Assembly (NCBI GenBank): GCA_023150835.1
Contig: JAKLKB010000130.1
Span: 1 to 19,537 of the forward strand
Source of the DNA: Myxococcota bacterium
Lineage (GTDB): Bacteria; Myxococcota_C; UBA6777
Reading direction: 5' to 3'
DNA length: 19,537 nucleotides
Shown: positions 1-10,556 of the stretch, piece by piece
How positions within the stretch are numbered: the first letter of the stretch is position 1
How the letters are laid out: every line of letters begins with the position of its first letter
Made by a program: the position numbers and the translations under genes
Notes under the pieces: generated by a model
The model's database searches: none
Told to the model about the DNA's origin: nothing
The model's input: only the letters and a program-made list of their open reading frames with translations

Positions 1-1847
1 GAGGCTTCTTGAGCGGAGGGTTGGGGAGAACAAGGGATATCGCGATCAGGGAGAAGAACAACGGAAGTTGCGGCGTCGGTGGTCGAGATATCTTTTTCTG
101 AGGGGGGGGACAGATTGGGGGAGGTAATGGAGGGAGGCAACGAAAGAGGCGCGGGGCTGTGGGGAGAAGAGAGCGGAGCGAGGTTGTGGGACGAAGAGGG
201 GGGTTGCGGCGACATCATCTCAAGAAACGAGGGGGCAGGCATCGGAACAGTAGGAGGTGCAGGGAGCCTAGACAAGGGGCTTTGAGAGAGAGGGGGTGGC
301 GAAGCAAGGCCGGGAAAAGGCAGCGCGTTTGGAGAAGAAGGCGCAAGGGCTTGTGGCAAGGGCGAGGGGACACCTGCCAAAGAAGTCTCGCTGCTGCGAG
401 GTAAAAAGGGAGATGGCAGGCCAGATATCGAGCGTTCGGGATGTTGTGAAGTCGCGGATGGACGGGAAAGATTGGCGTTTAACGGAGGAAGGGAGCCTTG
501 GACATTTGGATAGGAGGTTGAGGAGGGTGCGGTTTGAGGAGGCCAGCTTTGGGCGGACTTTCCGGCAGCTTGGGAATCTTCGACGAGTTCGGAAGTGGTG
601 GTTGAGATGCTTTTACTGCCCACAAAAGAGCCTGTGTTGGCGGTTTCGTCGCGCCTTTCTTGGTGGGGGTCTTTTTCGCAAGGTTCTTGTGGGGGTTGTT
701 TTGCTCGATGTATCGAGCGTTCGACAAAAGGAGAAGAAGCAGCAAGACTCTCTCGTTCTCGGGGGTTGGAGCGTTGCTGAAGGAAACGCTGTGGATCAGA
801 AAGAACAGCAGAGACATCACCATCCATATCAAGAGTTGTGGTGTCCTCTTCGGGGCGATCATCGTAAGTCGATTCGAGTTCGTCCTTTTGGGGGCGAAAG
901 GCGGCGCGCAGGGATTCATAGATCTGCCAAGCGGAAGCAAAACGCTGCGAAGGATCTTTGGCGAGGGCTTTGGCAAGCAAGGCTTCTAACGCTGGATTGG
1001 GCGGAAGATCGGGGCGGATATCGGAAAGGCGGGGAGGCGTGTGGGTAATGTGACCGAGCATTACTTCGGTGGGTGTTTTGCCTTGAAAGGGAGTGCGGCC
1101 TGAGACGGCCTCAAAAAGGATCACCCCAACAGAGTACAGATCCGAGCGTGGAGTGATCTGTGACAAGTCACCACGGGCTTGTTCGGGAGACATATAGGTG
1201 GGCGAGCCGTAGACTTCGCCGTCGACGGTGAACTCGGAGGGGATACCGGTTTGGGCGATGCGTGCGATGCCAAAGTCGAGGATCTTGAGGACTTCACGGC
1301 CACGACGTTGAAGTAGAAAGAGGTTTTCAGGTTTGAGATCGCGGTGGACGATATCTTTTTCGTGGGCTTCTTCGAGAGCGCCGCAAAGCTGTTCAAACAG
1401 GTTGAGGATGCGTGCGGGTGGAAGGGCCTCGCCGCCGCGAATGACTTGCTTGAGGGTTTTGCCTTCAAGGTACTCCATCACAAGGTAAAAGCCGAAGCCA
1501 TCGAACCAACCAAAGTCTGTTTCGCGGATGATGTTTTCGTGGTCCAAAGAAGCGATCACACGGGCTTCTCGGCGAAAGCGCTCGACGACTTCTTGGTCAG
1601 CAGCAAACTGTGGATGGAGGAACTTGATGGCGTAGGGTTTTCCGAGGTTAACGTGTTCAGCGAGATAGACGACCCCCATCCCTCCCGAGCCGATACGCTT
1701 GACAAGACGGAGGTTTCCGACTTGGCGTCCGACCAGCGGATCAGACGAGCGATTTTGGGATATCTCATTCAACTGCGCGCCACACTGCAAGCAAAACTTT
1801 GCAGCGGGCGGATTGGCGTGGCGGCACTTGGGGCAGGCGATCTCCAT
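1..1847 (-). CDS. Zinc-ribbon Ser/Thr protein kinase, partial (C-terminus beyond left edge)
   Basis: Eukaryotic-type (Hanks/PknB family) Ser/Thr kinase, probably cytosolic over the visible part. At least 615 codons stay open from the ATG at 1847 to the window edge. Residues 5-22 form a zinc ribbon with paired Cys (C5, C8, C19, C22). The kinase domain spans about 45-315: glycine loop GSGGMG (53-58), catalytic Lys K75 in AIKF, Glu E94, HRD at 168-170 with N175, DFG at 191-193, and SPE at 220-222 in place of APE. All catalytic residues are present, so it should be active. From about 320 the chain is a low-complexity Pro/Ser-rich tail with no recognisable domain; a membrane helix or sensor may lie beyond the edge. 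The ribosome site is weak (GAGAAA, GCGAG upstream), but the start fits the usual beginning of such zinc ribbons. It follows the esterase gene after 20 nt, so co-transcription is likely. Substrate unknown. Confidence 0.93.
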   Translation of the reverse strand, partial: MEIACPKCRHANPPAAKFCLQCGAQLNEISQNRSSDPLVGRQVGNLRLVKRIGSGGMGVVYLAEHVNLGKPYAIKFLHPQFAADQEVVERFRREARVIASLDHENIIRETDFGWFDGFGFYLVMEYLEGKTLKQVIRGGEALPPARILNLFEQLCGALEEAHEKDIVHRDLKPENLFLLQRRGREVLKILDFGIARIAQTGIPSEFTVDGEVYGSPTYMSPEQARGDLSQITPRSDLYSVGVILFEAVSGRTPFQGKTPTEVMLGHITHTPPRLSDIRPDLPPNPALEALLAKALAKDPSQRFASAWQIYESLRAAFRPQKDELESTYDDRPEEDTTTLDMDGDVSAVLSDPQRFLQQRSNPRERESLAASSPFVERSIHRAKQPPQEPCEKDPHQERRDETANTGSFVGSKSISTTTSELVEDSQAAGKSAQSWPPQTAPSSTSYPNVQGSLPPLNANLSRPSATSQHPERSISGLPSPFLPRSSETSLAGVPSPLPQALAPSSPNALPFPGLASPPPLSQSPLSRLPAPPTVPMPAPSFLEMMSPQPPSSSHNLAPLSSPHSPAPLSLPPSITSPNLSPPSEKDISTTDAATSVVLLPDRDIPCSPQPSAQEA

Positions 1848-1867: not shown

Positions 1868-3862
1868 TTATTTTGTCGCAGGGATGGGGAGTTTGTAGAT
1901 GCGCGTTTCAGGTTTGCGGATGCGGTCGCCATAGCGCTTTTCGACTTCGCTCACCACCTCAAAAAAGGCAGATTCCATTTGGGGTCCATCGGAACCCGAA
2001 AAGCCTTTGTTGTCAACATAGAAAGAGCCTTTGTGGCAGGCTTCAGCCTTTTCGGAGCGCAGGCGCTTGGGATTTTCGGGATCAGGATAAATGCGCTCAC
2101 AAGAACCATGCACACTGACGCCGATCATCTTGGTGAGTTGACCTTCTTTCATCAAGCCCGCACCAACGGCCAAGAGAGAGGCCATGCCGGGTCCATCCAT
2201 CCCGTAGCCGTGTCCAAAGTAGATTACAGGATAGCGCTTGTTGGGTTCGGCATGAAAGCCGGGAGGCAACACGACAGAGTAGATATTTTGGCGTTTGAGG
2301 GCTTTGGATTCATAGAAGAAGTGTTGGACATCGCCTTCTTTTTTCTCTTTGTCAAAGTCGATGCGGTTGGTATCGGGATCGGGGAGATGGTGGGAGACGT
2401 AGCTAAAGAAGGCCAAGACGCGGTTGATCATCCCGTCGACGCCGTGGATGTGGTCGCCGTCGCCTGCGGCGATCTTTTCGGGAGAAGCGTTGGGATCGCC
2501 GTATTGAATATAGAGGTGTTGGCCTTTGGTGGACCAGTCGACTTTGTTGGCATCAAAAGGCCCCTTGGCATCGGGCATAAGCGAGACAAAGCGTTCGTGC
2601 AAGACAGCCAAGCGCAGATCGCTGGTTTTTGCGCGGATGGCTCCGAGAAGGTTCATTCCTGTGACGTGGAAGTTGAACAGATCGCGGATACCGCCGTCGA
2701 TGTAGACGTTCAAGCGCGCAAGCTGATCGGGAGTCATCTTGCCCACCAAGGTATGCGGATCGTGGGCCATAAAATTCTCAAAGCCCCGTGTCATCGTAAA
2801 CTTGCCGTCGCCTTCGCCGAAGTCTTTGGTGTTCGGGACACCGTCGAGGCCGTTGTCTTGGAAGGGTTCTCCTTCGTCGCGGGTCATATTGCCTTGTGTG
2901 CCTTTGGGGTTGGTGATGGGGTGATAGTTGTCTTTGTTGGGATCGTCGCCGCCAACGCCTTTTTGACCGACAGGGACACAACCGCCTTTTCCATCTTCGC
3001 GGTCATCGGGGCATCCGTCTGTTCCGACATCTTCGTAAGGCTCATAAGGCGTCAGGATGATCGGTTCGCCGTAATCGCGCTTGCCGTTGCCGTTGATATC
3101 GACAGCGAGGATGATCTCGGTGGATGCGGTGTGCTCTTCGGGTTTGTCTGCCCGATAAGTTCCGCTGCGCTCGCTGGTTCCGTCGCAAAAGGTGATCACA
3201 TCGTATTTTCCGTCGGGGTTGTAGACGTGGTGGCGGAAGTTTTTGAGGCGGATGGGGTTGTTGCAACGGTCGGGTTGATCGCGCCAATTGTTGGGGATAC
3301 CGGGCGGATAATAGGTGCTTTCGGGATTTTGGTAGGAAGGATTACCGAGCGCAAAGATCAGATCTTGGACAACGCGGATCATCGCGTTTCGGTTCCAGTT
3401 TCCGCCTGCGTCGTCGTAGTACCAGTTGTTAAAATCGGAGACGATCTCGAAAGGAAACCGCGCTTTGGGGAGAGATTGGTTGCAATACGCAGAGGCTTCG
3501 TTGATCGTGCCGGCCTTTGCGGCCTCTTGGATCTTGTTGAGATCACAGAAACCATTGCCGAGCATGGATTGAATAAAATGCAACAGGTAGGTGTGATCGT
3601 TGGGGCCGCCCAACGTGCCGATGATGTCGAACTTGTCATGGTTGCGAAGTCCGACCATCGCGGCCATCCCTCCGCCCATCGAGATCCCCGCGATTATCCG
3701 ATAATTCCAACGGCGCTCGATGGTTTGGCCTTGGACGATCGGAGGATCTTTTTTGGGATCGTCTTTCTTTGGATCTTCGGGCGTTGTACACGCCAATCCC
3801 GCCACCACCACGAACCCAAACACCCACAAACCAACCCATACCCATCCAGATCTGATTCTCAC
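1868..3862 (-). CDS. Lipoprotein esterase of the alpha/beta-hydrolase fold, apparently circularly permuted
   Basis: Secreted lipoprotein of 664 aa, related to the putative-esterase family (esterase D, feruloyl esterase type); substrate unknown. The signal peptide has a basic start, a hydrophobic core at 7-23 and a lipobox AGLAC with C25, followed by a Lys/Asp/Pro linker. The nucleophile elbow GISMGGG lies at 59-65 (Ser61), only about 35 residues after the lipid Cys. Asp/Gly-rich motifs (DINGNGKRDYGEP at 255-267, then 274-287 and 329-355) look like calcium sites. A likely catalytic His is in DGDHIHG (468-474). Residues 528-664 hold what normally opens the fold: LPPGF (532-536), YPVIYFGHGYG (544-554), SFYVDN (613-618) and EKRYGDR (641-647), which usually directly precede the elbow. 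GTG at 3862 is chosen because GGAG lies 7 nt upstream and the signal peptide then has normal length; in-frame ATGs at 3883 and 3997 lack a good ribosome site. The kinase gene follows after 20 nt. Confidence 0.85.
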   Translation of the reverse strand: MRIRSGWVWVGLWVFGFVVVAGLACTTPEDPKKDDPKKDPPIVQGQTIERRWNYRIIAGISMGGGMAAMVGLRNHDKFDIIGTLGGPNDHTYLLHFIQSMLGNGFCDLNKIQEAAKAGTINEASAYCNQSLPKARFPFEIVSDFNNWYYDDAGGNWNRNAMIRVVQDLIFALGNPSYQNPESTYYPPGIPNNWRDQPDRCNNPIRLKNFRHHVYNPDGKYDVITFCDGTSERSGTYRADKPEEHTASTEIILAVDINGNGKRDYGEPIILTPYEPYEDVGTDGCPDDREDGKGGCVPVGQKGVGGDDPNKDNYHPITNPKGTQGNMTRDEGEPFQDNGLDGVPNTKDFGEGDGKFTMTRGFENFMAHDPHTLVGKMTPDQLARLNVYIDGGIRDLFNFHVTGMNLLGAIRAKTSDLRLAVLHERFVSLMPDAKGPFDANKVDWSTKGQHLYIQYGDPNASPEKIAAGDGDHIHGVDGMINRVLAFFSYVSHHLPDPDTNRIDFDKEKKEGDVQHFFYESKALKRQNIYSVVLPPGFHAEPNKRYPVIYFGHGYGMDGPGMASLLAVGAGLMKEGQLTKMIGVSVHGSCERIYPDPENPKRLRSEKAEACHKGSFYVDNKGFSGSDGPQMESAFFEVVSEVEKRYGDRIRKPETRIYKLPIPATK

Positions 3863-3873: not shown

Positions 3874-4371
3874 ATGCAGCCATGCGCAAAAACGGGGCCT
3901 GACAATACGCCAACAGAGCGCAGAGCGCGCCCCCCTTGACTTTCTGATGCGGAAGATGGAAACACCCAAAGCATCGCCACCACCCCATCCGATCCATGCG
4001 CCGTCCACACTAAACCCATTACAAAAAACATGCAAGCCATCACCACCACCGAAAGAAAAAAGCCAACCTGCTCTCGCTGTGCTTTTTGACCGCTCCATCG
4101 GCCCCAATGCCCCCGAAACAGTGCCAAAGAACATCCCCCGCTCCAGAGTCCGACCAGCGCCAATCAAGGACGAAACAACAAGACAGCAGACTGCTCAAGG
4201 GTCAAGGGATGCCGAGAAAGCGCGTGCGATAAGCATCCTTGCGGTCGTCGAACCTTGTCGCGCCCTTGCCTTGGACGCGCAACAAAAAGCATTGTACAGA
4301 TGCGTATCGGCTGGCAACGCCCCTCAAGCAGGCGCAGCAGACCGAAGATTCAGACAACAAGAAGACTTGTC
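3874..4371. other. Divergent intergenic spacer without a convincing gene
   Basis: Most of the 678-nt gap between two divergently transcribed lipoprotein hydrolase genes. Short open frames exist on the minus strand (to 4163 and 4167), but they begin with TTG, lack ribosome sites and match no family I recognise; one encodes a hydrophobic stretch around 4010-4100. The plus strand is rich in Pro, Thr and Lys codons without a credible start. The stretch probably holds the esterase-kinase operon promoter and untranslated leader, but I cannot place a clear minus-strand promoter. Confidence 0.5.
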
Positions 4372-4400
4372 TTGACACAAATCTCGGGGAATACGATATC
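4372..4400 (+). promoter_or_regulatory. Candidate sigma-70-type promoter for the lipase-like gene
   Basis: A perfect TTGACA hexamer at 4372-4377 is followed after 17 nt by GATATC (4395-4400), which matches TATAAT at only three positions. The -35 box is good and the -10 box poor. Transcription from here would give a leader of roughly 130 nt that contains the palindromic repeat at 4454-4475. Confidence 0.25.
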
Positions 4401-4435
4401 CGTGAGAAGTGTACACGAAGGGTAGATGCGACCGT

Positions 4436-4514
4436 TGTAAACGCCCGGTGATTGGGCAGCCCCCTGTGGCTGCCCCTACCTTTTTCGATCACACCCCCTG
4501 CGGATTTCGCACAA
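4436..4514 (+). repeat. REP-like palindromic repeat, copy A
   Basis: Imperfect repeat of about 79 nt, similar over its whole length to 6541-6619. The core is a hairpin with stem GGGCAGCC (4454-4461) and GGCTGCCC (4468-4475) around a 6-nt loop. Both copies start TGTA-ACGCCC (one base differs) and continue CCCCTAC after the stem, with a similar CGGAT-TCG-ACAA tail. In this copy the stem is followed by CTACC and five T, so it could also weaken transcription in the plus direction. It lies in the presumed leader of the lipase-like gene. Confidence 0.7.
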
Positions 4515-4529
4515 TCGGAGAAGAGCAGC

Positions 4530-4533
4530 GGAG
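4530..4533 (+). promoter_or_regulatory. Ribosome binding site deciding the GTG start of the lipase-like gene
   Basis: GGAG lies 7 nt before the GTG at 4541. The open frame extends upstream to an ATG at 4409, but that extension has no ribosome site, covers the palindromic repeat and would bury the signal peptide, so the GTG is preferred. Confidence 0.6.
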
Positions 4534-4540
4534 AGCATCG

Positions 4541-6520
4541 GTGATAAAGCGTAGGAATCTGTTTTTTGGGATGTTTGGTTTGACTTGGTTTGTCCTGTAC
4601 GCGGCATCGTTGGCGGGTTGTCCAGCGGCTCCGCAGGGCGGGGATGGTGGGCCACAAGAACAAGATCCGCCGCAGCGTTCGCCTCTGCGTGCGATCTTTC
4701 AGCTTGATCCGAGCGCCCCAAAGATGCCGTTTCCTTGCGATATCTTGACCCAAGAAGACCCCAAGACTCCCACAGGACGGCGAATATCGCTGAAAGAGGG
4801 CAAAAACAACGGACTGATCGACGAAGGTCTGACCTTGTTTGGGGATATCTATGTCAAGATGCTCAATCAACTGGATGGATGGTCTGCAGCAGGCTCGATC
4901 TGGGTGCCGCTTGAAGGCGAGATCCGACAAGATAACCTGCCAAGTTTTTTGAGTGAAACCCCGAAAGACGCGCCTGTTGTGGTGATGGATATGGATCCCG
5001 CGTCCCCCGATCAACACAAACGTATCCCTATCTCGGTGTCTTTGCTGACTTTTTCGGACGCCAAACAAGGCCACCCACATATCCTCAAGATCCAACCCTT
5101 GTTTCCGCTTCGCCCGCACACACGCTATCTTGTCGCGCTGACCGCGTCGCTCCAAGACAAACAAAACAGGTCGCTCGCTGCATCCGAAGACTTTCTTTAC
5201 ATGAGCGGCCAAAAAACCATCCCAGCCGAACATCCAGCGAAAGCGCGGATCGAAGAAGCGAAACTCCGCCTCCAAGAGCCACTTGCGACATTAGAAAAAG
5301 AAGGGATCGCCAAATCATCCCTGAGTTTGGCCTTTTTGGTGACCACAGGCAGCGGTCCCAAAGACCTCCTCGCTGCGCGTGATACGATCCTCAAAGAAAA
5401 TAAACTCGACTACACCTTCGATCCTGACAAAGACGGAAAGCCCAATCTGTACAACAATCCGCTGGAGGTTCCCAACGTTCCCGCCAAGACTCGAACCGAC
5501 GATATCCTTGCGATCTTGAAAGGAACCTTTGAGGCCCCCGAGTTTCGCAACACCAAAGGGGAATGGGAAGTCGAGGCAGGACGCCCCAAACTCCAAGGTT
5601 GGCTCGCGATCCCATTCCTCTTGATCTTGCCCAAAGCCATCGCCCAAGGTCCCGTCCCGATCGCCGTTGTCCAACACGGGCTTTCTTCCTACAAAGAAAA
5701 TATGGTGAAGATCGCGCATACCTTTACGACACGAGGCGTAGCCGTCATCGCCATCGACACCGTGGCACACGGAGAACGCAGCAAAACCCCCGCACAAGCC
5801 GGCCTCGAATACATGGCTTTCACTTCGGGACTGCGCTTTCTCGACAACTTTCGCCAAAGCGCGATCGAACACGTCCAACTCGACCGACTGGTCGCTTCTT
5901 TTGAAAAGCTCGACCTCTACCCACTCGGCCAGCCCGATGGAAAGCCCGACTTTTTACTCACAGGTCGCGCTTATCTCGGCCACTCTTTGGGCGGGATCAT
6001 CGGCGGTTTGCTTTGGGGTCTTCGACCCGAAACCACGATGGTGATCGCCGCAAGCGGTGGTCGGTTTGAAGATCTCATGGGCGGGATCTTGGGCAACGTG
6101 CTTCCAAAAGGAAACGAGTCACTGATCCTTCAAACCACCGCCGTGATCCAGCAATTTTTGGATCGCGCCGATCCGATCAATAGCCTCGCTTGGTCACAAC
6201 GCGACACCCCGACGCTTTGGGAGAAACGACAGATCCTGATGCAGCAAGCGATGAAAGATGAAACTATGCCTGCCGCTGCCACATGGTCGATGGCAAGGGT
6301 CTTTTCTCTACCACAGATCGCCCCCATCCTCCAAGCCGTCAACGGTCTCGATCCGAACGCCACCACCCAACGCGGCCTCACGCAGTTCCCAGACGCCCTG
6401 CACAACTACATCCTCGACGAAGAATACTCCCCCTTAACCCTCCAAGCCCAAGCCCAAGCCGCCCACTTCCTCGTCTCCGCTCTCAAACACGGAAAAGCCG
6501 AAGTCAAATCCACCCCATAA
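4541..6520 (+). CDS. Lipase/esterase-like lipoprotein (alpha/beta hydrolase, bacterial virulence-factor lipase type)
   Basis: Exported lipoprotein of 659 aa, probably an ester hydrolase at the cell envelope. The signal peptide begins VIKRRN (GTG start), has a hydrophobic core at 8-24 and a clear lipobox LAGC with C27, then a Gly/Pro/Gln linker. Residues about 48-220 (KMPFPCDIL at 61-69) resemble the beta-rich N-terminal domain of bacterial virulence-factor lipases. The hydrolase domain has the normal order: VVQHG (376-380, oxyanion His-Gly), AIDTVAHGER (404-413), nucleophile elbow GHSLGG (480-485, Ser482), a likely acid Asp in DRADP (541-545) and a likely catalytic His in DALHNYI (618-624). 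Copies of one palindromic repeat lie on both sides. It is divergent from the esterase operon and convergent with dihydroorotase. The natural substrate cannot be read from the sequence. Confidence 0.85.
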   Translation: MIKRRNLFFGMFGLTWFVLYAASLAGCPAAPQGGDGGPQEQDPPQRSPLRAIFQLDPSAPKMPFPCDILTQEDPKTPTGRRISLKEGKNNGLIDEGLTLFGDIYVKMLNQLDGWSAAGSIWVPLEGEIRQDNLPSFLSETPKDAPVVVMDMDPASPDQHKRIPISVSLLTFSDAKQGHPHILKIQPLFPLRPHTRYLVALTASLQDKQNRSLAASEDFLYMSGQKTIPAEHPAKARIEEAKLRLQEPLATLEKEGIAKSSLSLAFLVTTGSGPKDLLAARDTILKENKLDYTFDPDKDGKPNLYNNPLEVPNVPAKTRTDDILAILKGTFEAPEFRNTKGEWEVEAGRPKLQGWLAIPFLLILPKAIAQGPVPIAVVQHGLSSYKENMVKIAHTFTTRGVAVIAIDTVAHGERSKTPAQAGLEYMAFTSGLRFLDNFRQSAIEHVQLDRLVASFEKLDLYPLGQPDGKPDFLLTGRAYLGHSLGGIIGGLLWGLRPETTMVIAASGGRFEDLMGGILGNVLPKGNESLILQTTAVIQQFLDRADPINSLAWSQRDTPTLWEKRQILMQQAMKDETMPAAATWSMARVFSLPQIAPILQAVNGLDPNATTQRGLTQFPDALHNYILDEEYSPLTLQAQAQAAHFLVSALKHGKAEVKSTP

Positions 6521-6640: not shown

Positions 6641-7987
6641 TCAGATCTTCCTATCTTTGTGAAATCGCAGCGGCTGACCTGCTGCATGGGGATGAAGCTG
6701 TCCATCGTGCCACGCCAAATGCCCCGATACAAGGGTACTATCGACTCGTGCAGGGAAAGTATGTCCCAAAAATGGCGACCACCCACAGCGATACGCCAAA
6801 GACTCCTCTGTCACTTGCGTTGGGGCGTGCGGGTCCACCAAGACAAGATCCGCCCAGTACCCCTCGCGAATATAACCGCGATCTTCGAGGCCAAAGATCG
6901 TCGCCACGTTATGACTGGTCTTTTGCACAACTTCCTCGATCGAAAGCCTGTGGTGATGGACGTGTTCGAGCAAAGAAAGCAAGCTATGTTGCACCAACGG
7001 CAGACCTGACGGCGCTTTTCGATAGGGCTGGGCTTTTTCTTCGCGGGTGTGCGGGGCGTGATCGGTGGCGATCACATCGATCACACCGTCGCGCAGCGCC
7101 TGCAAGATAGCATCCCGATCTTGCGCTCGTTTGATCGCAGGATTGCACTTGATCCATGTCCCAAGCCTCGGATAATCAGCATCGCAAAAGAACAAATGAT
7201 GCACGCACGCTTCCGCTGTGATGCGTTTTTGCGCCACAGGAGCATCCGAGAAAAGCCCCAACTCGCGGGCCGTACTGATGTGCAAAACGTGCAGGCGTGT
7301 TCCGTGTCGCTTCGCCAAGGCAACGGCCAGCGAAGACGAAGCATAACAAGCCTCTTCGCTTCGGATCATCGGGTGCATGGAGATCGGGATCTGCTCTCCA
7401 TAACGCGCCAACGCAGCCTGTTCGTTGTCTTGGATGATGGGCGTGTCTTCGCAATGCGTCGCCACAAGCGTCGGAGCATGGGCAAAGATCCCCTCCAAGA
7501 TCACCTCTTGATCGACGAGCATATTCCCTGTCGAAGATCCCATAAAGACCTTGATCCCGCAGATCTCGTTGGGATCGGCGCGTTTGATCTGTTCGAGGTT
7601 GTCATTGGTCGCGCCAAGATAAAAGCTGTAATTGGCGAAGGATCGGCCTTTTGCACGCGCCAGCTTGTCTTGTAGAGCGCTGCGATCGGTCGTGGTCGGG
7701 ATGCAGTTCGGCATCTCCATATAACTTGTCACACCGCCGATCACCGCTGCGCGAGATTCACTTTGGATATCGCCCTTGTGCGTCAGTCCGGGCTCGCGAA
7801 AATGGACTTGATCGTCGATCAACCCCGGCAACAACCAACGCCCCCTGCCCTCGATCACCACATCTGCGTTCGCAACATCCGCGATCGCCCCGATCTGCTT
7901 GATCCGACCGGCCTCGATCCACAGATCCCCTTGTGTCTGTTGCCCTTCGTTGATCACGCAAACATCGCGTATCCATATCCTAGACAT
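6641..7987 (-). CDS. pyrC: Dihydroorotase, Bacteroidetes-type subfamily
   Basis: Zinc amidohydrolase that interconverts N-carbamoyl-aspartate and dihydroorotate, the third step of de novo pyrimidine synthesis, in the cytosol. It has 448 aa, normal for the family. Visible motifs: LLPGLIDDQVHFREPG (52-67), EMPN (91-94), GIKVFMGSSTGN (144-155) with the likely carboxylated Lys K146, ATHCED (176-181, H178), LHVLHIS (232-238, H236), ATDHAPH (307-313, metal Asp D309) and APSGLPLVQH (325-334). The first His of the usual HxH pair is Gln60, while H62 is kept; this DDQVHFREPG form is typical of the subfamily I remember from Bacteroidetes, so it is not read as decay. The ATG at 7987 has AGGA 10 nt upstream. 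The gene is single, not in a pyr operon, and divergent from the kinase at 8103. Confidence 0.95.
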   Translation of the reverse strand: MSRIWIRDVCVINEGQQTQGDLWIEAGRIKQIGAIADVANADVVIEGRGRWLLPGLIDDQVHFREPGLTHKGDIQSESRAAVIGGVTSYMEMPNCIPTTTDRSALQDKLARAKGRSFANYSFYLGATNDNLEQIKRADPNEICGIKVFMGSSTGNMLVDQEVILEGIFAHAPTLVATHCEDTPIIQDNEQAALARYGEQIPISMHPMIRSEEACYASSSLAVALAKRHGTRLHVLHISTARELGLFSDAPVAQKRITAEACVHHLFFCDADYPRLGTWIKCNPAIKRAQDRDAILQALRDGVIDVIATDHAPHTREEKAQPYRKAPSGLPLVQHSLLSLLEHVHHHRLSIEEVVQKTSHNVATIFGLEDRGYIREGYWADLVLVDPHAPTQVTEESLAYRCGWSPFLGHTFPARVDSTLVSGHLAWHDGQLHPHAAGQPLRFHKDRKI

Positions 7988-8040
7988 CTTGTGTTTTTCC
8001 TTGTATGTTTGGGCTTTCTGTACACTTCTCGCGGTGCGTG

Positions 8041-8092
8041 TTTGTTGTTCGGGCCAGATGCCCCCTCGCATGGCGCGAAAGCGCAACAAAGG
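8041..8092 (+). promoter_or_regulatory. Possible structured leader (three-way junction) before the second kinase
   Basis: An outer stem TTTGTT (8041-8046) pairs with AACAAA (8085-8090). It encloses hairpin GGGC-CAGAT-GCCC (8051-8063) and hairpin GCGC-GAAA-GCGC (8073-8084), the latter capped by a GNRA tetraloop. The 3' strand of the outer stem overlaps the ribosome site AAGG (8089-8092), so folding could limit translation. The start site is unknown (a weak TACACT box at 8021-8026 is possible), and a short GC-rich stretch can form such pairs by chance. Confidence 0.25.
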
Positions 8093-8102
8093 TATATTCT
8101 GC

Positions 8103-10556
8103 ATGGACGTCAGGCTACAAGAACGCTTGATCACGTCAGGTTTGCTTTCGCAAGACCAACTCAACCAAGCCATCCAACAAAACCAACAACAAGGCGGTAG
8201 CTTACGCGAAGCCCTTGTGGGCTTAGGCTATCTTTCCGATACCCTGATCCAACGCATCCAAGCCGAGATGTTGGGGAAAAAATTCTACACGCTCGAAGAG
8301 CTTTTGGGACTCAACATCTCCACCGAGCCGATGCAGCGGATATCCTACACACAAGCCCTCGAATGGATGGTCCTTCCGCATGGAGACGAACACAGCCACA
8401 CATTAGAACTGATCTGTGCATCGCCCCCTACCCTCGAACAACAACGACTGATGACCCAGATCTGCAACGCGGCCCTTGGCGGTGTAGCCTTGGCCTCTCA
8501 CGCAGCCCTACAAAAAGCCATCCGCTACCACTATGGGCGTTTTATGCTCGAAGCGTTGGGAAAAAACGAAAGCGATCTCCCCAGCGCTGAACCGACCACG
8601 CCCCAAACATCAGCCTCTGCCCAAAAACTATCTTCCACACAAAGCCAGATCTTGTTGCGACAAGAAGCGCTCTGTCCCGCATGTCAGTATCCTTACGAAC
8701 GAGGTATGCGCCATTGTATGCAGTGCGGTTGCGATCTCGATACAGGTCGAACCGATCCGTTGATCGGCGAAGTCGTTGGAAAACGCTGGCGATTGTTGCG
8801 CCAACTTGGCGAAGGCGGCATGGGCCTTGTTTACCAAGGCCAAGAACTCGACACCAAGGAACTTTGCGCGATCAAATTCCTGCGCTCCCACGCAGAACGC
8901 GCCCCCGAAGAAAAAGAGATCAAACGCTTTGAAAAAGAGGCCCAGATCCTCAGCGATCTGCACCATCCTCACATCCTACAGTTGCGGGCCTATGGAGTCA
9001 GCCGCAGCTTGGGCTTCTACCTCGTCACCGAATTTTTGGATGGCCTCAGCCTCGATCGCTACGCCGAAAAACACGCGCCGTACATCCCCTTTATGCGGGT
9101 CTGTCAGATCCTTTGCCAAGTTTGCGAAGCGATGGATTTTGCCCATCAACAGGGCGTGATCCACCGTGATATCAAACCCGAAAACATCTTTATGACCCAC
9201 GACGAACAAGGCAACGAATGGGTCAAGATCATCGACTTTGGGATCGCCCATAAACAAAAACCGCACGAAGCGCGCCTAACATCGACAGGCATGATGATCG
9301 GAACCCCCCGCTACATCGCCCCCGAACAAATCCTCGGAAAAGAAGTCGGCACTGCCGCCGATATCTACGCCCTCTCCGTGATCTTGTTTGAACTGCTCAC
9401 GTTCAAAGACTTGTTCGTTGCAGACAACGTGTACGAATACTTGATGCGTCACGTCTACGCCGAACCTCCGCGACTTCAAGACCTCTGCCCTGAACGCCAT
9501 TACCCTCGCGAACTACAAGCCTTGGTCGATGATGGACTGGCCAAAAAGCCCGAACATCGGCCTGCATCCATGAATCTATTTCGAGAGCGGCTGCTTCGCG
9601 TTGCCGCGCTGCCTTGGGCACGTCAAGAAAAAGAGACAGGTGGCTTTCTACGACCCGGGTTTGATGTCCTCCGCCTAAGCGAGGAGATCGCACAACTCCC
9701 CACCAGCCTCTCCATCCATCCCCCTCCAACGTACGCCAGCCAAGCTCCCTCCTTGGCTTTTGCCCCCACAGATGCTGCACTCGACGCTGTCCGCCGCCCC
9801 CTCCTCTCCTCAAACGCCCCAAGCGCCAAACCCGCTCAAGCATGGCCCCATCACCTCGATCCACCCGATATATGGGTCGATGATGAACCCTCTTCCTCCA
9901 AACTCACCGAACTTAGCGCGGCCCTCGATAAACATTACGGTGGAACCGCCACTTCCCCTGCATCTTCCAAATCCCATCCTGCCAACCCCAAACCACAAGC
10001 CGCGAAACCACACCTCCCTTCGTCTAAACCAGCGCCGCCCTCCGAGGAACGACGCCTTCCATCCAACGAACCCACGTCCGTCAAAGAACAGGCCCTCCCC
10101 CGCCCTGTGCGTGCAAGCACACCGCGCTCCCAAGCCCTCTGGACTTCCGAACAGACACAACGCAAAGGCATCGGTCGTTGGCTGTTTTTGCTTCTTCTGC
10201 TGCTTTGCTTCGGTGCCGCCGCCTTCGTTTATTTCTTTCCGCAACAAGCCAACCTTCTTTGGCTGCGCCTGCGGCTCTACACCACAGGCGCGGACGCCCT
10301 CGAAAAACAATTCCCCAAACGCAAAAAAAGAACACGACCTCCCCAACAACAACAATCCAAACCGCCCAACCCACCGCTAAAACGGAACACCGACACGACC
10401 CCAGAAGATCCACCCGACCCTCCGCCTCGATCCAGAACACCACCCACCCGGCGCAAAGCCCAACCCACCCGGCGCAAAGCTCAACCCACTCGGCGCAAAA
10501 GAAAGAAGAAAAAAGTCCCCGTGAAACCCCGCCCGCCAGAACCCGAAGACGATTAA
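8103..10556 (+). CDS. Ser/Thr protein kinase with MshEN-like N-terminus, zinc ribbon and membrane-anchored basic tail
   Basis: Hanks-type Ser/Thr kinase of 817 aa. Residues 1-140 resemble the MshEN/T2SSE N-terminal domain (LLSQDQLNQAI, SLREALVGLGYLSDTLI, then an ELLGLN segment), a module that in type II secretion and type IV pilus ATPases can bind cyclic di-GMP. A zinc ribbon follows (C191, C194, C205, C208). The kinase spans about 228-500: GEGGMG (236-241), K258, E279, HRD (354-356) with N361, DFG (378-380) and APE (406-408), so it should be active. Residues 520-690 are a Pro/Ser-rich linker, 693-711 a single membrane helix, and the tail is Lys/Arg/Pro-rich with three 7-residue repeats. The N-terminal kinase is expected in the cytosol and the tail across the membrane. 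The ATG at 8103 has AAGG 10 nt upstream; ATGs at 8058 and 8070 are possible. Substrate unknown. Confidence 0.93.
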   Translation: MDVRLQERLITSGLLSQDQLNQAIQQNQQQGGSLREALVGLGYLSDTLIQRIQAEMLGKKFYTLEELLGLNISTEPMQRISYTQALEWMVLPHGDEHSHTLELICASPPTLEQQRLMTQICNAALGGVALASHAALQKAIRYHYGRFMLEALGKNESDLPSAEPTTPQTSASAQKLSSTQSQILLRQEALCPACQYPYERGMRHCMQCGCDLDTGRTDPLIGEVVGKRWRLLRQLGEGGMGLVYQGQELDTKELCAIKFLRSHAERAPEEKEIKRFEKEAQILSDLHHPHILQLRAYGVSRSLGFYLVTEFLDGLSLDRYAEKHAPYIPFMRVCQILCQVCEAMDFAHQQGVIHRDIKPENIFMTHDEQGNEWVKIIDFGIAHKQKPHEARLTSTGMMIGTPRYIAPEQILGKEVGTAADIYALSVILFELLTFKDLFVADNVYEYLMRHVYAEPPRLQDLCPERHYPRELQALVDDGLAKKPEHRPASMNLFRERLLRVAALPWARQEKETGGFLRPGFDVLRLSEEIAQLPTSLSIHPPPTYASQAPSLAFAPTDAALDAVRRPLLSSNAPSAKPAQAWPHHLDPPDIWVDDEPSSSKLTELSAALDKHYGGTATSPASSKSHPANPKPQAAKPHLPSSKPAPPSEERRLPSNEPTSVKEQALPRPVRASTPRSQALWTSEQTQRKGIGRWLFLLLLLLCFGAAAFVYFFPQQANLLWLRLRLYTTGADALEKQFPKRKKRTRPPQQQQSKPPNPPLKRNTDTTPEDPPDPPPRSRTPPTRRKAQPTRRKAQPTRRKRKKKKVPVKPRPPEPEDD
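10443..10505 (+). repeat. Three 21-nt tandem repeats in the kinase tail
   Basis: Three in-frame copies of a 21-nt unit encoding PTRRKAQ, PTRRKAQ and PTRRKRK. The first two differ by one base; the third diverges at its end. Unit length is a multiple of three, so copy-number change would keep the frame and alter the number of basic blocks in the tail. Confidence 0.85.

Follow-up and report, generated by a model that had tools for sequence, protein, structure and literature searches.

The locus at positions 1868 to 3862 of the window, that is, of the whole stretch of 19,537 nucleotides that was analysed, raises the question of whether an esterase-like protein whose motifs stand in an unfamiliar order is a genuine circular permutation of its family and, if so, what kind of enzyme such a protein would be. 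An earlier note on this DNA had claimed that the two halves of the domain are swapped relative to the putative-esterase family, the nucleophile elbow and the His region preceding LPPGF, HGYG, SFYVDN and EKRYGDR, and that joining the C-terminus to residue 55 restores the normal order.

The gene and its landmarks

The gene is located on the minus strand, a detail absent from the earlier note, and its features are collected in Table 1. When the landmarks were relocated on the translation, the motif positions given before proved exact: Cys25, GISMGG at 59-64 with Ser61, GDGDH at 467-471, LPPGF at 532-536, HGYG at 551-554, SFYVDN at 613-618 and EKRYGDR at 641-647. Translation of positions 1868-3862 (minus strand) yields an open frame of 664 codons without any break, and the next gene begins 20 nt further on (kinase start at 1847, esterase stop at 1868), just as had been stated. 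A frameshift as the source of the unusual order was rejected because the frame is open over its entire length.

Table 1. Features of the permuted hydrolase gene and of its downstream neighbour; positions refer to the window.
Feature	Positions	Strand	Remarks
Ser/Thr protein kinase with N-terminal zinc ribbon	3..1847	minus	Pfam Pkinase, 4.7e-48; directly downstream, starts 20 nt past the esterase stop
Permuted hydrolase lipoprotein gene, 664 aa	1868..3862	minus	GTG start at 3862, stop 1868-1870, coding 1871-3862
Signal peptide (inferred), residues 1-24	3791..3862	minus	basic start, then hydrophobic stretch up to the Cys
Candidate lipid-attachment Cys25	3788..3790	minus	Cys almost invariant in this column; GLAC is unlike the usual lipobox at position -3
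Second half of canonical domain, piece 1, residues 45-130	3473..3730	minus	b5, nucleophile elbow, aC, b6
Ser61, predicted nucleophile (GISMGG)	3680..3682	minus	Ser in 99/104 members
Cap-position insert, residues 131-374, ~245 residues	2741..3472	minus	Asp/Gly-rich repeats DINGNGKRDYGE, DVGTDG, GLDGVPNTKDFGEGDG
Second half of canonical domain, piece 2, residues 375-499	2366..2740	minus	b7-Asp, b8-His, helix aF
Asp394, predicted catalytic acid	2681..2683	minus	Asp in 104/104 members; aligned to canonical Asp
His471, predicted catalytic base (GDGDH)	2450..2452	minus	His in 101/104 members
First half of canonical domain, C-terminal, residues 500-664	1871..2365	minus	b1-b4, oxyanion loop, aB
HGYG, residues 551-554, oxyanion-hole loop	2201..2212	minus	conservation in 104 members

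Both halves of a CE1 esterase domain are present in swapped order

Pfam family PF00756 recognizes the window protein with 36.2 bits, the cut-off being 22, and matches 40 of 42 family members at E<=0.01; the better of the two matched stretches places residues 40-100 on profile positions 103-156. In a phmmer search against the PDB, query residues 509-583 aligned with residues 29-105 of the XynZ feruloyl esterase (1jjf) while query residues 48-89 aligned with 140-182 of the same chain, that is, in reversed order, and the same reversed arrangement was obtained on 7b5v. With a profile of ten family members, the ferulic acid esterase 7xrt was hit by two stretches adjoining each other in the target, at 24-141 and 144-187, the former corresponding to residues 500-664 of the window protein, and with the profile of all 42 members it was found at an E-value of 1.5e-22. 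Residues 45-130 match canonical CE1 esterases directly after the stretch matched by residues 500-650.

A further comparison is a profile-profile alignment (hhalign) of the permuted family with a canonical CE1 domain profile built from the searched genomes. In native order the family gave two swapped blocks, scored 167.8 and 82.6, whose junction lies at template columns 206-207, and rotation at residue 500 merged them into one block with a score of 233.5, or 248.8 once the insert was removed. With cuts at residues 560, 600 or 630 the two blocks persisted; good scores were also obtained with cuts at 80, 420 and 460, as expected because the joint between the halves then stays intact. As E-values from pairwise hhalign runs are uncalibrated against a database, the block structure is the evidence here. 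When rotated copies were compared with Pfam the score hardly changed, since insert and tail interrupt the match, and profile-profile alignment was used instead.

Profile searches and rotation thus agree with the earlier note, both on the swapped halves and on the order restored by rejoining. Compared at this level, the domain is shown to be permuted with both halves homologous to CE1 esterases, and the swap is confirmed to be real and more than chance. The window protein does not have the oxyanion loop ahead of the elbow, the order canonical for CE1/PF00756, and is therefore considered a permuted relative of CE1 enzymes and not an ordinary member.

Packing of the two halves

Homology implies that the protein would have the eight-stranded core fold. 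AlphaFold2 returned a pLDDT of 28.5 from an input of only two near-identical sequences, the window protein and L009, which is too shallow an alignment. A mean-field coupling analysis, itself shallow with 99 members and 78-85 effective sequences, pointed to a ladder in which residues 49-55 run antiparallel with 655-649, i.e. between the two new termini. This ladder ranked first among 74,128 seven-residue windows when the phyla of the window and of G193/G048 were excluded, and third when all sequences were included. Since such windows overlap with one another, the ends of an alignment easily generate artefacts and several other pairs of high score resemble noise, we count the ladder as suggestive of new termini that meet in space.

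The halves could also complement each other between chains, forming an obligate domain-swapped dimer or oligomer with elbow and oxyanion loop contributed by different molecules. The sequence evidence is blind to the difference between intra- and intermolecular packing, and the linker between the old C- and N-termini is short (~25 residues). However, the ladder is explained most simply as an intrachain contact, although a swap might produce it as well, and the same order is an established type of catalytic domain in type 2 PHA depolymerases (PMC2666664). We regard such an exchange between chains as improbable and prefer the folding of both halves within a single chain.

Relationship to type 2 PHA depolymerases

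The earlier note knew of no described permuted lipoprotein esterase of this kind. This holds insofar as the open-access journal literature that was searched yielded no account of a CE1 or feruloyl esterase in permuted form; it does not hold for the order as such, which is known from type 2 PHA depolymerases. The window protein might accordingly be viewed as a divergent type 2 enzyme, in which case its permutation would not be new. In fact, type 2 enzymes share with it the succession of Ser, Asp, His and oxyanion loop as well as the cut point (L103; PMC2666664). L103 is an authentic type 2 member (337 bits with NF050059, the curated NCBIfam model of this type) in which GISAGG, NDT, GHGW and HGC follow one another. 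Against a type 1-like protein from genome G441, NF050059 aligns as two pieces in swapped order, so type 2 is permuted relative to that protein; G441 also holds the permuted family described here, on a different contig.

While the oxyanion loop of the window protein does lie C-terminal to the triad, a match to NF050059 is lacking: the model matched none of the 42 family members at E<=0.01, nothing in family-holding genomes such as G251, G386, G387 and G392 at E<=1e-5, and nothing in the window's own phylum at E<=1e-10. L103 aligned with the family profile over only 29 residues at the elbow with a score of 21, compared with 170 for canonical CE1. Furthermore, 2d80/2d81 were missing from the family-profile search of the PDB at E<=10. 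These entries are the Penicillium funiculosum enzyme, a type 2 extracellular short-chain-length PHA depolymerase, which the authors of the structure reportedly described as a circularly permuted alpha/beta hydrolase. Identity with type 2 PHA depolymerases was therefore rejected, NF050059 being unmatched and the similarity to L103 confined to the elbow, and we judge such membership quite unlikely. Since neither the model nor an authentic member matches the family, the permutation in the window protein looks like a second, independent one.

Predicted active site, cap insert and probable lipid anchor

The triad typical of alpha/beta hydrolases is found at the expected places, Ser at the elbow, Asp after b7 and His after b8. 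YIDGGIRD aligned to the canonical b7-Asp in the profile-profile comparison, whereas the His segment was set by conservation, motif and position because the alignment to canonical enzymes ends before His471. All five exceptions at the Ser61 position belong to one degenerate lineage of the G184/G318 phylum, and the three sequences without His471 are gaps in that same lineage. The His of HGYG is kept in 89 of the 104 aligned members and replaced by Pro in 13 and by Leu in two; Gly552 is present in 99. The 13 members with PG for HG (L150, L151, L155, L156, L159-L167) are otherwise intact; this substitution weighs against the enzyme reading proposed below.

In the lineage without the serine (L013, L014, L070, L071, L072) the HG oxyanion loop is lost as well, with the permuted order and Asp394 retained. 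These proteins are likely pseudoenzymes, and because Ser61 and HG are lost there, the fold can apparently persist without catalysis. One might extend this reading to the window protein and see in it a non-catalytic structural or binding lipoprotein with a permuted fold, as the lineage just described retains that fold. Ser, Asp and His are, however, kept together in each of the 99 remaining aligned members, the window protein among them, which leaves a non-catalytic role for the latter very doubtful. An active enzyme is the reading that we follow.

The insert separates b6 from b7, where caps are commonly located in the alpha/beta-hydrolase superfamily (PMC11878206), and contains acidic residues that are invariant in the family alignment. 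It probably binds calcium, as judged from its pattern of Asp, Asn and Gly. Similar acidic repeats, DVGxDGxxDxxEDGKGGC and GEPFxDxGxDGVxxTxDxGEGDG, occur in unrelated large proteins (L018, L020, L024, L025, L029, L032, L067); one carrier, L025, is a TonB receptor with CarboxypepD_reg and TonB plug domains. These repeats give the impression of a mobile module to which no Pfam family corresponds.

The designation as a lipoprotein stands in part. A signal stretch and a nearly invariant Cys25 speak in its favour, but the GLAC lipobox in the window's phylum is atypical; members from another phylum carry LSSC or LFSC. On these features a lipid anchor is likely.

Distribution and phylogeny

The order is not peculiar to one sequence. 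A paralogue with 69% identity lies on a different contig of the same genome, and full-length members with the same order in open single frames occur in all five genomes of the window's small phylum; the stop flagged within two matches turned out, on translation, to be the natural end of the protein. Orthologues are 54-97% identical (97% for L009) and are read in single open frames from independent genomes, some of them from large contigs. Among 386 genomes spread over the domain, distant members were found in G193, G048, G251, G184 and G318. Searches at phylum level recovered the same order in both genomes of a second phylum (G193/G048), matches in the large phylum of G251 in 83 of 282 genomes at 1e-6 and in 100 of 377 at 1e-30, and the degenerate members that have lost Ser in six of seven genomes of a fourth phylum (G184/G318). 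The permuted order is common to more than 100 bacterial genomes from at least four phyla. Scans of viral contigs for further usable homologues gave none.

Homologues with the same order, which the earlier note had called for, thus exist in the paralogue and in the genomes of four phyla, and complete homologues in normal order, which it had named as a potential refutation, were not seen with the same insert in the searched genomes. The remaining explanation, an assembly or recombination artefact or what is left of a tandem gene pair in decay, is negligible: no point in its support was found, and an assembly error or rearrangement is excluded by the paralogue and the independent genomes that carry the same order.

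In a tree of 42 members three of the four phyla, namely those of the window, of G193/G048 and of G184/G318, come out as single groups with full support, and the four phyla require three label changes in all, the least possible. The tree is consistent with a single origin of the permutation and also compatible with lateral transfer.

Genomic neighbourhood

The downstream kinase gene is kept beside the esterase gene in L009 (98% identical) and in L086 from another genus (68%). Kinase and esterase are possibly co-transcribed, and the conserved adjacency hints at shared regulation, no more than that. In three genomes of the large phylum a conserved protein of ~1000 residues is encoded beside the permuted esterase (L087 2589-5657, L093 1980-5222, L089 10228-14790); it has only marginal BNR/Asp-box similarity in Pfam, and the L089 frame is longer with an uncertain start. 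Elsewhere in the window, positions 7899-10556 (plus strand) hold a second Ser/Thr kinase frame with an MshEN domain upstream of the kinase domain, and two long frames on opposite strands overlap at 4409-6520 (plus) and 4202-5275 (minus); neither has a Pfam match, and one of them may be a gene.

Proposed architecture and significance

Taken together, the window protein is very probably a secreted, presumably lipid-anchored serine carboxylesterase of the CE1/putative-esterase lineage with a capped, circularly permuted alpha/beta-hydrolase domain; its three-dimensional packing, lipidation, calcium binding, catalysis and substrate are what we infer from the comparisons above. In the proposed architecture the loop that connects helix aB to strand b5 would contain the new chain ends, and a short linker at about residues 490-515 would join the old ones. 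The chain would then run from b5 with Ser61 through b6, the cap insert of ~245 residues, b7 with Asp394, b8 with His471 and aF to b1-b2-b3 with the HGYG oxyanion loop, b4 and aB. Both halves would fold together into one normal Ser-Asp-His active site with Ser61 as nucleophile, Asp394 as acid and His471 as base, its oxyanion hole formed by the backbone after HG and after Ser61. The cap, probably stabilized by calcium, would cover this site and shape the choice of substrate, and the protein would be anchored at the surface. Because of the relationship to CE1, one may guess that the substrate is a polymer or small molecule bearing an acyl or feruloyl ester.

As to its origin, we consider it probable that the permutation is a second, independent one located at the joint also used by type 2 PHA depolymerases, that it arose once from a CE1-type esterase and was combined with a calcium-dependent cap, that it was spread or inherited over at least four bacterial phyla, and that in one of these a lineage became a pseudoenzyme. 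To our knowledge, circular permutation has rarely occurred in nature in the alpha/beta-hydrolase fold. Two apparently unrelated families, one of them large and old-looking, are thus cut at an identical point, which suggests a preferred joint in the loop ahead of the nucleophile elbow. Order-dependent annotation splits such esterases, for which Pfam gives partial 'Putative esterase' matches only, and the coexistence of active and Ser-less lineages allows one to compare, in a natural setting, for what purpose the fold is retained.

Comparison with known systems

With the CE1/PF00756 esterases (1jjf, 7xrt, 7b5v) the window family shares homology over both halves, the GxSMGG elbow, the LPPGY, HGxG and YR motifs and the position of the Asp, but it differs in its swapped halves, the large cap insert at b6-b7 and the probable lipid anchor. 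Tandem CE1 esterases (L015, L021, L030, L031) carry two complete canonical domains per chain. They resemble the state through which duplication and trimming would pass, but both of their domains are complete and in canonical order, and no sequence evidence ties the permuted family to such an ancestor. The route by tandem duplication suggested in the earlier note is plausible because such proteins exist, and they do so in several of the searched genomes, in which an intermediate was not seen. With type 2 PHA depolymerases, finally, the family has in common the lipase box followed by Asp, His and then the oxyanion loop, and a cut at the same topological point; on the other hand, the two differ in that significant sequence similarity does not extend past the elbow and L103 does not contain the acidic cap insert.
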